Shown: positions 18,551 through 25,170 of the stretch, piece after piece
Layout: each line of letters begins with the position of its first letter
How positions within the stretch are numbered: the first letter of the stretch is position 1
Assembly (NCBI RefSeq): GCF_000332175.1
Contig: NZ_KB235914.1
Coordinates: forward strand, 689,966-753,965
Source: Pseudanabaena sp. PCC 6802
GTDB taxonomy: Bacteria; Cyanobacteriota; Cyanobacteriia; Pseudanabaenales; Pseudanabaenaceae
Direction of reading: 5' to 3'
Length of the DNA stretch: 64,000 nucleotides
The notes under the pieces: generated by a model
What the model was told of the DNA's origin: nothing
Databases searched by the model: none
The model's input: only the letters and a program-made list of their open reading frames with translations
Translations under genes and position numbers: made by a program

Positions 18551-18663
18551 TATAGCGGTTTTCAGATCGGAAAGAGTAGGGGGTTTGGGGGCGTTGCCCC
18601 CAAGAAGGGGTTCCACCCCTTCACCCCAAAAATAAAACCCGTTCTCAAGTGAAAACCGCTATA
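18551..18663 (+). repeat. Family B repeat
   Basis: TATAGCGGTTTTCA at the left end and TGAAAACCGCTATA at the right end form a perfect 14-bp terminal inverted repeat. The core has GGGGGCGTTGCCCCC and GGGGTTCCACCCC hairpins. It starts two bases after the stop codon of the GGDEF-EAL gene. Confidence 0.9.
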
Positions 18664-18747: not shown

Positions 18748-18851
18748 TATAGCCATTGACAGATCTGTTAGGACAGGGGGTGTGGGGGCTGCGCCCCCAC
18801 ACAGGGGTGAACCCCCTGCACCCCGTCCTGAGCCTGTTGGCTATAGCTGTA
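18748..18851 (+). repeat. Family A repeat upstream of the DNA methyltransferase
   Basis: Full copy from TATAGCCATTGACAGATCTG to GGCTATAGCTGTA. It lies 14 bases before the methyltransferase ATG, so ribosome binding and the promoter region are likely influenced by the repeat. The methyltransferase frame stays open back through part of it. Confidence 0.88.
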
Positions 18852-18865
18852 CTTATGGTTGGTAT

Positions 18866-21800
18866 ATGAATGCAGTCGAAATCGAAGAAGCCGTTTCCCG
18901 GCTGGCTGAGGCTCCCTTTGATCCAGAGGAGTTCCCCTTTGCTTTTTTGGAAGCTTTCGGTAACAAGCCAACAACCCTCAAGCGGCTCAAAAGCAATAGC
19001 TCAAACCAATCTGACCTACCTGGTGGGGTACTCCAGCGGAATAATATTCATTTGAAGGTGTGTGCTGAGGGGGAGGTGACTGCGACCCTGACGGAGTTGC
19101 GGCAGAGTCCGGCGACAGCGCGGCAGAAGGCGAAGTTTATTTTGTCGACGGATGGCAAGAGCTTTGAGGCAGAAAACCTGGCGGATGGCGAGACGATCGC
19201 CTGCGACTACCCCAATTTCCCTGACCACTTTGGTTTTTTCTTGCCCTTGGCGGGGATTACAACGGTTAAGCAGATTCGGGAGAATGCTTTTGATATTAAG
19301 GCAACGGGTCGTCTGAATCGGCTCTATGTAGAGTTGTTGAAAGATAATCCCGACTGGGACAAGGCAGAGCGTCGGGAAGATTTTAACCATTTTATGGCGC
19401 GACTGATTTTCTGCTTTTTTGCGGAGGATACGAATATTTTTCCCACTACCCCAAAAGGTGAGGGGTTGTTTACGAATACGATCGCGCAGATGAGCGATGC
19501 CTCGAATACCCATGAGGTGCTGTCGGAGGTGTTTCGGGCGATGTGTACGCCGCCCAAGGATCGCGAGGCGGCGGAGATTCGCAATTGGGCGGATAAGTTT
19601 CCCTATGTGAATGGGGGGTTGTTTAGCCCTCATCCTGACCCTCATCCCCTAACCCCTTCTCCCAAGCAGGGAGAAGGGGAACAAGAGGCTGTTTCTCCCC
19701 TCTCCCGACCTGGGAGAGGGGCTGGGGGCGAGGGTCTTCAGACTAGTGAAGGGGGACAAGAGGTTGAATACTGGGAAATTTCACCTGCCCTTAAGCAGAA
19801 AATGACTGAAGTTGCCCGTCAATTTCGCAAAGAACCTACTCCCAGTGAAATAATCCTCTGGCAAGCCCTGCGCGGACGCAAGCTAGAAGGACGGAAATTC
19901 AGACGACAACAACCGATTGGAGCGTTCGTTGTTGATTTCTTCTGTGGTGCAGAACGGCTGATTGTGGAAGTGGATGGGGGGGTGCATGAATCGCAGCAGG
20001 AAGCGGATCGACAACGGCAAGAATTGCTGGAGTCGTTGGGGTTGAGGGTTGTTCGGATATCGAGTGAGCTAGTTGAAACGAGGCTAGACGAGGTATTGGC
20101 TGTCGTGCGACAAGCGTTTGACCCTCATCCCCTAACCCCTTCTCCCAAGCTGGGAGAAGGGGGACAAGATCCGGCTCCCCTCTCCCTTTCTGGGAGAGGG
20201 GCTGGGGGTGAGGGTCTTATGGTGCCGCGTTTTAGTAAAGTAGCCCGATCGTACCTCCTCCACGTCGGCAATCTGGACTGGAAGCAGATCAATCCCGACA
20301 TTTTCGGCTCGATGATTCAGGCGATCGCCGAGGACGAAGAACGCGGGGCGTTGGGGATGCACTATACCAGCGTGCCGAATATCCTCAAGGTGTTGAATCC
20401 GCTGTTTTTGGACGATTTGCGCGCTCAACTAGAAGCAGCGGGGGATAATGGCCGCAAGTTGCTGAATTTACGTCAACGGATGGCAAAAATTCGGGTGTTC
20501 GATCCGGCTTGTGGGTCGGGGAATTTTTTGGTGATTGCTTATAAGGAGATGCGGGCGATCGAAGCGGAAATCAATCAGCGGCGGGGGGAGAGCGATCGCA
20601 AATCCGAGATTCCGCTGACGAATTTTCGGGGGATTGAGATTCGCCATTTTGCCACGGAGATTGCGCGGTTAGCGTTGATTATTGCGGAGTATCAGTGTGA
20701 TGTGTTGTATCGGGGGGCAAGGCTGGCGCTGGCGGAGTTTTTGCCGCTGAAGAATGAGAACTGGATTACTTGCGGGAATGCGTTGCGGTTGGATTGGTTG
20801 AGTTTATGTCCGCCGACAGGAACGGGGGTGAAGGTGCAGCGTGAGGATCTAGATTTATTTAGTACGCCGCTGGAGCAGACGGAAATTGATTTTGAGAATG
20901 AGGGTGGGGAAACGTATATTTGTGGGAATCCGCCTTATCTCGGATCGACTTGGCAATCGAACGAGCAGAAGGACGATCTAAAACTCATTTTTGATAGACG
21001 CACCAAAACCTGGAAGTCGCTGGATTATGTGGCGGGCTGGTTTATGAAAGCAGCGGATTATGGCACACAAACCCAATCTGCGGCAGCGTTTGTGTCTACG
21101 AATTCCATTTGTCAGGGACAACAAGTGCCGATTCTATGGCCGCTAATTTTTGCAACAGGACACGAAATTGCTTTTGCCCATACCAGTTTTAAGTGGGCAA
21201 ATCTGGCGAGCCATAATGCTGGGGTCACGGTAGCGATCGTTGGGATTTCTAATCACGCTGGTAAAGTTCGACAGTTGTTTTCAGTTGAAGATAACGGTGA
21301 GACAGTCGCGAAAGAGGCTGACAACATAAACGCTTATTTAGTCGCTGGGTCTAATGTTGAGATTTCAAAGCAAGCAGAACCTCTAGCCAAAACAGACGAA
21401 ATGCTACGAGGGAACATGCCCTATGACGGTGGAAACTTGCTCCTTTCCGCTAACGATGTGAATGAGCTTGATTTGACCAAAGAACAACGCGATCGCTTTA
21501 TTCGGCGAATTTATGGATCGGCGGAATTCATTCGGGGGCTATCTCGATATTGTCTTTGGATTGAAGATGATGAGCTTGAGGAAGCATTAGCTATCGAACC
21601 GATCCAACAGCGAATTGCAGGAGTGCGAGCAATGCGGCTGGCAAGTCGTGACAAGAGCGCGAACGAAATGGCGGCACGTTCTCACCAGATGCGTGAGATG
21701 AATATCGGTAAAAAGCAGACAGTTGCAGTAGCTGCTATTTCATCTGAAAATCGCCAATTCCTACCGTGTGGATTGCTTAGTCCTCATGAAACCATTACGA

Positions 21801-22258
21801 ATAAGGTCTACGCTCTCTACGATGCCCCCCTCTGGAATATGGCACTGATCGCCTCCCGCCTCCATTGGGTCTGGATCGGCACGGTCTGCGTCCGCATGAG
21901 AACCGATTTCTCCTACTCCAACACCCTTGGCTGGAATACCTTCCCCGTCCCCACCCTGACCGAGCAAAACAAAACCGACCTCACCCGCTGCGCCGAAGAC
22001 ATCCTCCTCGCCCGCGAACGCTACTTCCCCGCCACGATCGCCGACATGTACGACCCCGATCGCATGGATAGCGAATTCCCGTTAGTCAGGGAAGCCCACG
22101 ATCGCAACGACGAAATCCTGGAGCGCATCTACATTGGTCGCCGCTTCAAAAACGACACCGAACGTCTCGAAAAACTATTTGAGTTATATACCAAAATGAC
22201 CAGTCAGCAGGCTTCATCCCAAAAGTCTTCCAATCGTAAACCTAAAGGACGTAAGTGA
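18866..22258 (+). CDS. MmeI-like DNA adenine methyltransferase with in-frame DUF559 insertion
   Basis: 1130 residues from ATG 18866. MNAVEIEEAVSRLAEAPFDP is the usual family start; the frame upstream is repeat sequence. Large class I SAM-dependent N6-adenine methyltransferase: motif I DPACGSGNFLV (about 544), motif IV GNPPYLGS (about 687), then recognition-domain segments and a C-terminal helical region with WNTFPVP and DRMDSEFP. It resembles type IIG/IIL enzymes, but I cannot identify the PD-(D/E)xK nuclease residues in the N-terminus. Between PYVNGGLFS and VPRFSKVARSYLL, residues about 258-451 are a foreign cassette: repeat C, DUF559, repeat C. Core of a restriction-like island with the helicase and GIY-YIG genes downstream. 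Confidence 0.9.
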   Translation: MNAVEIEEAVSRLAEAPFDPEEFPFAFLEAFGNKPTTLKRLKSNSSNQSDLPGGVLQRNNIHLKVCAEGEVTATLTELRQSPATARQKAKFILSTDGKSFEAENLADGETIACDYPNFPDHFGFFLPLAGITTVKQIRENAFDIKATGRLNRLYVELLKDNPDWDKAERREDFNHFMARLIFCFFAEDTNIFPTTPKGEGLFTNTIAQMSDASNTHEVLSEVFRAMCTPPKDREAAEIRNWADKFPYVNGGLFSPHPDPHPLTPSPKQGEGEQEAVSPLSRPGRGAGGEGLQTSEGGQEVEYWEISPALKQKMTEVARQFRKEPTPSEIILWQALRGRKLEGRKFRRQQPIGAFVVDFFCGAERLIVEVDGGVHESQQEADRQRQELLESLGLRVVRISSELVETRLDEVLAVVRQAFDPHPLTPSPKLGEGGQDPAPLSLSGRGAGGEGLMVPRFSKVARSYLLHVGNLDWKQINPDIFGSMIQAIAEDEERGALGMHYTSVPNILKVLNPLFLDDLRAQLEAAGDNGRKLLNLRQRMAKIRVFDPACGSGNFLVIAYKEMRAIEAEINQRRGESDRKSEIPLTNFRGIEIRHFATEIARLALIIAEYQCDVLYRGARLALAEFLPLKNENWITCGNALRLDWLSLCPPTGTGVKVQREDLDLFSTPLEQTEIDFENEGGETYICGNPPYLGSTWQSNEQKDDLKLIFDRRTKTWKSLDYVAGWFMKAADYGTQTQSAAAFVSTNSICQGQQVPILWPLIFATGHEIAFAHTSFKWANLASHNAGVTVAIVGISNHAGKVRQLFSVEDNGETVAKEADNINAYLVAGSNVEISKQAEPLAKTDEMLRGNMPYDGGNLLLSANDVNELDLTKEQRDRFIRRIYGSAEFIRGLSRYCLWIEDDELEEALAIEPIQQRIAGVRAMRLASRDKSANEMAARSHQMREMNIGKKQTVAVAAISSENRQFLPCGLLSPHETITNKVYALYDAPLWNMALIASRLHWVWIGTVCVRMRTDFSYSNTLGWNTFPVPTLTEQNKTDLTRCAEDILLARERYFPATIADMYDPDRMDSEFPLVREAHDRNDEILERIYIGRRFKNDTERLEKLFELYTKMTSQQASSQKSSNRKPKGRK
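19637..19738 (+). repeat. Family C repeat, left flank of the DUF559 cassette
   Basis: GACCCTCATCCCCTAACCCC, a TTCTCCCAAGCAGGGAGAAG hairpin, a CTCTCCCGACCTGGGAGAG hairpin, and GGCTGGGGGCGAGGGTCTT. It is translated as DPHPLTPSPKQGEG and PLSRPGRGAGGEG within the methyltransferase. The copy at 20120-20218 is in the same orientation and frame. Confidence 0.9.
19739..20119 (+). other. DUF559 endonuclease-like domain inserted in the methyltransferase
   Basis: 127 codons between two direct family C repeats. LKQKMTEVARQFRKEPTPSE, LWQALRGRKLEGRKFRRQQP, VVDFFCGAERLIVEVDGG and LGLRVVRIS are the conserved blocks of DUF559 proteins, a Vsr/PD-(D/E)xK-like nuclease family usually encoded as stand-alone genes of about 115-125 residues. 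The whole domain seems complete, with the D-x(n)-E-V-D core visible. The offset from repeat start to repeat start is 483 bases, a multiple of three, so the host frame is kept. Confidence 0.85.
20120..20218 (+). repeat. Family C repeat, right flank of the DUF559 cassette
   Basis: Direct repeat of 19637-19738: GACCCTCATCCCCTAACCCC, TTCTCCCAAGCTGGGAGAAG, CTCTCCCTTTCTGGGAGAG, GGCTGGGGGTGAGGGTCTT. Translated as DPHPLTPSPKLGEG and LSLSGRGAGGEG. Confidence 0.9.
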
Positions 22259-24387: not shown

Positions 24388-25066
24388 ACCCAAGAGCAAG
24401 GAAGCCGAGCGCATCTGCCGCGAGGACTTGACTGAACTAGTGACGGCTTTTGTCCAGGACAAGCCCACAATCGAACGCGGTCTATTCGACGAGGAACTGG
24501 TGCCCGAAGAACTGACCCAAGTACGAATGGGCAAAATCGTCAAAGAAAAATTCCCGAATTTAGACGAAGAAGATCGAGAAGCAGTGCGTCAACATGCGAT
24601 CGTCGCCCTCAACCTCGTGCAACAAGCCAAGCAAACCGTCAACGAATCCGGTGGTAACTATAATATTCTTCCCCCCTCTCCCAGGAAGGGAGAGGGGTTG
24701 GGGGTGAGGGAGGAAAAAGAAGCGCCCAAAAACACCGCCCTCATCGATGGAGTTCGGCAGTTTGCCCTATCGGTGACAGAACTCGACATGGATCTGATTG
24801 ATCGCATCAACCCCTTTGGCGAAGCCTATGCCATTCTAGCTAAGTCCATGAGCGAAGAACGACTGCGGCAGGTCGCAGAAGTGATTGCTGCCAAACGGAT
24901 TACCCTGAGCGTGGAAGAAGCACGGGAATTGGCTAAACGGGCACTGCGGTTCAAGCAAGAAAAAGGCAGGTTGCCCTCTCTCACAGCAGTCGATCCTTGG
25001 GAAAAACGGATGGCAGAGGGGGTTGCCTTCCTGCAACGCAAAGTAAAGGAGGAAAACGATGCCTAA
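24388..25066 (+). pseudogene. C-terminal part of the frameshifted SF2 helicase
   Basis: The +1 frame runs without a stop from before the helicase stop codon: AKPKSKEAERICREDLTELV, then a helical domain (RMGKIVKEKFPNLDEEDREA, FGEAYAILAKSMSEERLRQV) ending KVKEENDA. There is no good start codon with a ribosome site (TTG 24428 is the first), which supports a broken gene and not a separate one. Residues NYNILPPSPRKGEGLGVREE come from a family C repeat at 24667-24713. The segment PWEKRMAEGVAFLQRKVKEE resembles C-terminal regions of related helicases. Confidence 0.82.
24667..24713 (+). repeat. Partial family C repeat inside the helicase C-terminal region
   Basis: CCCCCCTCTCCCAGGAAGGG, then AGAGGGGTTGGGGGTGAGGG. 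A half-element with one hairpin, kept in frame and encoding PPSPRKGEGLGVRE. Confidence 0.85.
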
Positions 25067-25069
25067 GTC

Positions 25070-25170
25070 TACCCTCATCCCCCAGCCCCTTTCTCCCAAA
25101 ACGGGAGAAGGGGAGCAAGACTTCTTCAAAGTCCCTCTCCCCTTCTGGGAGAGGGATTTAGGGTGAGGGA
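25070..25170 (+). repeat. Family C repeat between helicase and nuclease genes, with flanking duplication
   Basis: ACCCTCATCCCCCAGCCCC, hairpin CTTTCTCCCAAAACGGGAGA, hairpin CCCCTTCTGGGAGAGGG, ending GGGTGAGGG. It is flanked by near-identical 21-base segments, 25046-25066 and 25179-25199 (20 of 21 match; AAGGAGGAAA-CGATGCCTAA), each containing ribosome site, ATG and TAA. This suggests an insertion that duplicated the stop/start junction. Confidence 0.88.

Follow-up and report, generated by a model that had tools for sequence, protein, structure and literature searches.

Palindromic elements that stand in frame inside genes are already known; in Rickettsia palindromic elements (RPEs), palindromic repeats lie in frame within protein-coding genes and are tolerated as an extra peptide. 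To my knowledge, RPEs carry no nuclease gene. BoxC/triplex-motif repeats were described in the 1990s, and I know of no mobiliser for them. In this study, a stretch of 64,000 nucleotides (nt) of Pseudanabaena sp. PCC 6802 (GCF_000332175.1, NZ_KB235914.1, positions 689,966-753,965, forward strand; hereafter the window) was analyzed. It contains a cassette, a DUF559 nuclease domain between two BoxC-like repeats, inserted in frame into a DNA methyltransferase gene. The cassette is probably a selfish mobile element of the homing type, residing in frame within protein-coding genes and dispensing with splicing.

By profile and by predicted fold, the nearest characterized relative of the nuclease is the homing endonuclease I-Bth0305I, a Vsr-like EDxHD enzyme (PDB 3R3P), which is also a mobile-element nuclease found within coding genes. 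That enzyme belongs to a mobile intron, whereas the cassette has no recognized intron or intein and stays in the protein. Inteins with a homing endonuclease likewise have an in-frame nuclease domain inside conserved genes and a patchy distribution, but the cassette has BoxC-like palindromic ends, has no Pfam-recognized splicing domain, and is permanently carried by its hosts. Unlike RPEs, it has a nuclease between two repeat copies. In the repetitive extragenic palindromic (REP)/RAYT systems, palindromes also flank a nuclease gene, but RAYT is a Y1 HUH enzyme, while the cassette nuclease has a PD-(D/E)XK Vsr-type fold and often lies inside genes. The BoxC/triplex motif (TM; PIT elements) has the same type of core as the cassette repeats (CCCTCACCC..CCCTCTCCC/GGGAGAGGG), as judged against the E. 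coli copies beside the DUF559 gene ycjD. Holder et al. 2015 (PMC4666352) report that BoxC/TM repeats abound in Enterobacteria and Cyanobacteria and are associated with instability; a word search of that paper gave neither DUF nor endonuclease. Caulobacter VsrA, which contains the same DUF559 domain, is reported to trigger DNA damage signaling in vivo; it is a stand-alone gene, read as a mismatch repair gene, and mobility and repeats are not discussed in the passages covered (PMC12907096). No description of a repeat-bounded in-frame DUF559 cassette was found in the open-access literature mentioning DUF559, which was covered mostly by title and abstract. The BoxC/triplex repeat, the Vsr-like homing endonucleases, and in-frame palindromic elements are already known, while their combination appears to be new.

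The cassette in an MmeI-like gene

The host gene (18866-22258, forward strand) encodes an MmeI-like (type IIL/IIG family) DNA methyltransferase of 1130 amino acids, including the insert. In the open reading frame (ORF) from 18782 to 22258, the MmeI_N, MmeI_hel, MmeI_Mtase, MmeI_TRD, and MmeI_C domains follow one another in the correct order, all above the Pfam cut-off. The true start is probably the ATG at 18866, as homologues begin with MNAVEIEEAV. The cassette occupies 19628-20218 on the forward strand. In a comparison with at least 13 cyanobacterial homologues, its 591 nt replace 9 nt of most empty homologues, which gives a net insertion of 582 nt in frame. Most homologues spanning the site are empty (9-21 nt) and read GGLFS-GGVE-VPRFSK across it, and the reading frame of the window gene is open throughout the cassette, from repeat to repeat. 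The initial annotation had described a DUF559 module between two direct repeats, in frame within a methyltransferase that resumes where its family members continue. This description was confirmed by Pfam, the repeat spacing, and the empty homologues, and the alignment with MmeI-like homologues that it had proposed showed that the cassette is absent from most of them.

The repeats are indeed two direct copies, but they are not plain: each, about 100 nt long, is palindromic, with two nested hairpins (CCCCTTCTCCC/GGGAGAAGGGG and CCCCTCTCCC/GGGAGAGGGG) and CCCTCATCCCC/GGGGGTGAGGG-like outer arms. The left repeat (19636-19738, forward strand; direct repeats D1/D3, nested hairpins I2/I3) is translated into the peptide PHPLTPSPKQGEGEQEAVSPLSRPGRGAGGEGL, and its inner hairpins lie at 19653-19679 and 19697-19721. 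The right repeat (20119-20218, forward strand; D1/D3) is translated into PHPLTPSPKLGEGGQDPAPLSLSGRGAGGEGL. A 51-nt pair (96% identity) begins at 19636 and 20119 with a spacing of 483, and a 44-nt pair (91% identity) begins at 19695 and 20175 with a spacing of 480. The repeat start motif has five matches in the window, against 0.05 expected by chance. Judged by sequence, the repeats have a palindromic core of the BoxC/triplex-motif type (CCCTCACCC-CCCTCTCCC), the window copies being a near variant (CCCTCATCCCCTAACCCC...). The BoxC core is common to the 2-Mb sister class and the E. coli copies adjoining ycjD.

The DUF559 domain (PF04480; 19799-20113, forward strand) scores 103.5 bits against a cut-off of 20.6 (Pfam E 7e-30) and has the conserved D, E-x-D, and H in the invariant columns. 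Its profile matches 3HRL (E 8e-36) and 3R3P, that is, I-Bth0305I (E 4e-4). For the predicted model (pLDDT 80), 3HRL and 3R3P were the top matches (3e-5 for I-Bth0305I), with E. coli Vsr lower. Purifying selection acts on the embedded nuclease; the ratio of nonsynonymous to synonymous substitution rates (dN/dS) of embedded DUF559 is 0.04-0.19 where dS is estimable. Pfam scans (Rfam was not run) found no self-splicing domain but only DUF559 and host domains, and neither an intein nor a group I intron was recognized.

The full cassette was found in frame at the same MmeI site in three genes, namely those of the window, of G346 from the same family, and of G513 from another cyanobacterial family, the last containing one TGA. 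In G427 (108 nt) and G215 (102 nt), which belong to two further families, a repeat without the nuclease lies in frame at this site. Homologues of G474, G391, G403, and G407 enter a repeat at the same point; the G474 gene is truncated there, and the other three are broken or ended by a contig edge. The window cassette is 87-92% identical to the cassettes of the same-site homologues and 89% identical to that of L087, a gene that is not MmeI-like (its type-III-like label was read off the sequence and does not rest on Pfam). The mark of a homing element used here, the occurrence of both empty and occupied alleles at a single homologous site, was found at the MmeI site and in the PriA loop described below. 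On the MmeI host tree, the insert-bearing genes are not grouped; few branches are well supported and force only one change, and the counting of gains was dropped because the resolution is too weak. The initial annotation had held that the same insert at the same site in unrelated lineages would indicate an old domain and not a recent cassette. Such cases exist in part (G346, G513 of the other family, and the repeat-only alleles in two more families), but insert-bearing alleles are interspersed with empty ones, and thus a fixed old domain is not established either. The MmeI homologue of G346 (L060) has two extra tandem repeat copies past DUF559, all in frame, and thus the insert also grows.

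The repeat-only alleles at the MmeI and PriA sites would also be expected if homologous recombination between widespread BoxC-like repeats shuffled DUF559 into repeats already present in gene loops, with the nuclease uninvolved. The truncation of the G474 gene at a repeat agrees with this, as does the instability of BoxC/TM loci reported in PMC4666352. Such shuffling leaves unexplained the strong purifying selection on DUF559 and the matching flanks of lineages whose repeats differ in sequence, and it seems very improbable.

The PriA loop and other host genes

In the PriA loop, 112 of the 117 sampled genomes have no DUF559. Related genomes carry full, repeat-only, degenerate, or empty alleles at this loop, and the frame is kept in every case. 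The seven PriA cassettes are a single clade of the DUF559 tree (support 100/98) but are scattered on the PriA host tree, where seven changes are needed, at least four of them forced by well-supported branches. This pattern would fit horizontal spread at an allelic site, the alternative being old presence with many losses. In the DUF559 tree, host genes are mixed within a cyanobacterial clade (100/99) and a Bacteroidota clade (100/95). Target-site duplication was sought in the PriA sites and none was obvious; the TTGACCCC...GGGGTCAA-like edges are inverted, not duplicated.

Cassettes of this kind are found within many unrelated genes, essential ones included, across bacteria and in one archaeon. 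In a class-wide search, the cassette alone was recovered inside many other long frames. Every Pfam-tested host of an embedded DUF559 in Cyanobacteriia is a methyltransferase or restriction gene: MmeI-like (at three different positions), Type ISP, Eco57I-like, DUF1156, or TaqI-like; the embedded host in Acaryochloris is HsdR. Hosts in the 2-Mb sister class include PriA, GHMP kinase, M14 peptidase, and a radical SAM gene, and those elsewhere include the leucyl-, isoleucyl-, valyl-, and methionyl-tRNA synthetases (LeuRS, IleRS, ValRS, and MetRS), MetH (at two sites), HisF, HsdR, HsdM, Type ISP, and a GATase domain. In Gillisia LeuRS, 140 extra residues lie between the positions matching residues 236 and 243 of T. 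thermophilus LeuRS, which are nearly adjacent there; the empty state of LeuRS rests on solved structures. Many of the genomes are metagenome assemblies, and the same was seen in the single-contig or isolate genomes G346, G513, Gillisia, and Cellulophaga. In Cyanobacteriia, repeats stand on both sides of 32 of the 34 embedded DUF559 domains and of 4 of the 24 stand-alone ones, a contrast that is not unbiased because the cassette itself was used to collect part of the embedded set.

The initial annotation had suggested that the cassette may have given a nuclease to a methyltransferase. If DUF559 was captured to arm the methyltransferase as a new restriction enzyme, the repeats would be linkers or capture scars, and the restriction-type hosts of Cyanobacteriia would be natural ones. 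The window host lacks the N-terminal nuclease motif of an MmeI-like restriction enzyme: by regular expression, D-X8-14-(E/Q)-X-K, the PD-(D/E)XK motif, is absent from the N-domain of the window protein and of the empty homologues with a complete N-terminus. The position of DUF559 at the junction of HSDR_N and the SWI2/SNF2 part of HsdR in four lineages (three by Pfam, the fourth by sequence) also favors a fusion with a function. On the other hand, MmeI-like hosts L135 and L139 retain their own N-terminal motif (D-X9-EXK, by the same kind of search), repeat-only alleles exist at the same MmeI site, and the same type of cassette lies in LeuRS, IleRS, ValRS, MetRS, MetH, HisF, and PriA. In the aminoacyl-tRNA synthetases, PriA, and MetH, a restriction role makes no sense. 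Thus, the host does lack a nuclease motif of its own, but the cassette is not a one-off gift to a restriction enzyme; a functional fusion is improbable, the gift of a nuclease becomes secondary, and the overall interpretation of the initial annotation is partly supported. The four HsdR lineages are Kryptoniota (L237), a Methanophagales archaeon (L243), Acaryochloris (L221), and Calditrichia (L259), and three of the four HsdR-embedded DUF559 sequences cluster together in the DUF559 tree.

Association of the repeats with DUF559

A total of 80 DUF559 loci from many phyla, selected without regard to repeats, were analyzed. The density of BoxC-like 9-mers falls with distance from DUF559: it is 7.7/kb over the first 100 nt, 3.4 and then 1.4 in the two following bins, and 0.1-0.3 past 300 nt. 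Against the baseline of 0.11-0.16/kb at 1-5 kb away, the enrichment within 100 nt is about 60-fold. A motif-free test, in which 200 nt on either side of DUF559 were locally aligned, gave a flank-to-flank match (score of 18 or more) for 66% of 74 loci and for 0.2% of 444 control windows (p 5e-28); the motif and regular-expression tests are simple ones. In the 2-Mb sister class (165 genomes), genomes with a strong DUF559 match have a median of 10.5 BoxC half-sites and the remaining genomes a median of 0. Each element itself supplies about two half-sites, and the median excess beyond these is 3.5. In a within-genus permutation, whose input values were transcribed by hand from two tables, the observed value was reached in 0 of 20000 trials. 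In genus g88, genomes with DUF559 have 5-85 half-sites and those without have 0-1.

The repeats outnumber DUF559 and are often solo. The Pseudanabaena genome has 26 repeat-like places (up to two mismatches) and one DUF559, and in G290, 78 half-sites were counted without a strong DUF559 match. DUF559 may then be a passenger carried as a composite, while the BoxC-like palindromes are moved by other machinery, such as a RAYT/Y1 transposase, or spread by replication errors. However, none of the six Y1 transposase loci of the Pseudanabaena genome has paired repeats or, except for one stray 9-mer, any such repeat nearby, and RAYT/Y1 was rejected as the mobiliser on this ground. The co-occurrence of repeats and DUF559 within genera and the roughly 60-fold density beside DUF559 (the one gene type sought between paired repeats) also argue against a passenger, which is unlikely.

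In E. coli, two or three BoxC copies follow ycjD. Most strains have ycjD and the BoxC copies between sapF and fabI (L271-L278), and other strains have a TetR/efflux block there and no BoxC. Since the strains without ycjD carry this different gene block, there is no clean empty site, and ycjD polymorphism was rejected as a test. The reading frame of the repeats relative to DUF559 was also uninformative, as no single frame was found.

Other repeats lie near the cassette. The neighboring ORF at 24428-25066 has a probable solo repeat in frame (24690-24712, reverse strand; a 3-mismatch motif match supported by the ORF translation), with the peptide PPSPRKGEGLGVREE; the same gene cluster thus probably contains a repeat-only insertion as well. 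Another solo copy begins just past this ORF (25072-25089, forward strand, one mismatch). Upstream of the methyltransferase gene are two further G-rich repeats (18560-18660 and 18775-18835; GGGTTTGGGGGCGTTGCCCCC; TAGGACAGGGGGTGTGGGGGCTGCGCCCCCAC), the second of which recurs at L002. Elsewhere in the genome, the repeat cores at L006, L010-L013, L016, and L018 lie within units resembling miniature inverted-repeat transposable elements with inverted ends of the ACGCGATGTGCAACT type; thus, a different element encloses the same core there. In G025 (L305-L334), several families of palindromic repeats (CCCTCACCCTAGCCCTCTCCC, CCCACCCCxGCCCTCCCTT, and GCATTCGCTCGCAATGACG) form mosaics in the regions around the repeats.

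A proposed homing strategy without splicing

A selfish homing-type element would work as follows. The mobile unit would be the Vsr/I-Bth0305I-like DUF559 nuclease between two BoxC/triplex-motif-like palindromic repeats. It is an ORF from end to end and would therefore appear in the host protein as an additional domain within a tolerant loop, the loop position being predicted and tolerance substituting for splicing. DUF559, produced within the host fusion, would cut or nick an empty or repeat-only allele, and repair from the cassette-bearing copy would then install the cassette. Rarer ectopic events may carry it to another gene. The repeat-only alleles would arise when the flanking repeats recombine with each other or the interior is deleted.

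Several points weigh against this proposal. Cleavage by DUF559, its target, and DUF559-driven movement are inferred here; neither target-site duplication nor a defined target was found. About one third of the DUF559 loci have no matching flanks, and the alignment behind the 80-locus search included several cassette-type sequences and may favor such loci. BoxC-like repeats are missing from 20 of the 24 stand-alone cyanobacterial DUF559 genes, and some embedded DUF559 domains, such as that in a GHMP kinase gene, have no BoxC-like motif. Conversely, G290 and G250 are rich in repeats without a strong DUF559 match. In PriA, an ancient cassette that was lost many times could account for the scatter. 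DUF559 copies inside one genome are at most 64% identical, with no sign of recent multiplication within the genome, and were rejected as proof of recent transposition; this low identity points to site-wise spread from genome to genome and not to bursts within genomes.

More tentatively, and with somewhat less confidence than the homing proposal itself, DUF559 may be the autonomous engine of a class of palindrome-bounded mobile elements that, in many phyla, insert in frame and free of splicing into protein-coding genes, even essential ones, the BoxC/triplex-motif repeats being their non-autonomous remnants. If this is true, a widespread domain of unknown function would gain a role, and DUF559 would be a candidate mobiliser of the BoxC/triplex repeats. 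An explanation would also be at hand for the odd fusions of DUF559 with aminoacyl-tRNA synthetases and with restriction enzymes. The cassette would then represent a homing strategy that needs neither an intron nor an intein, hidden as a tolerated loop in an indispensable protein.
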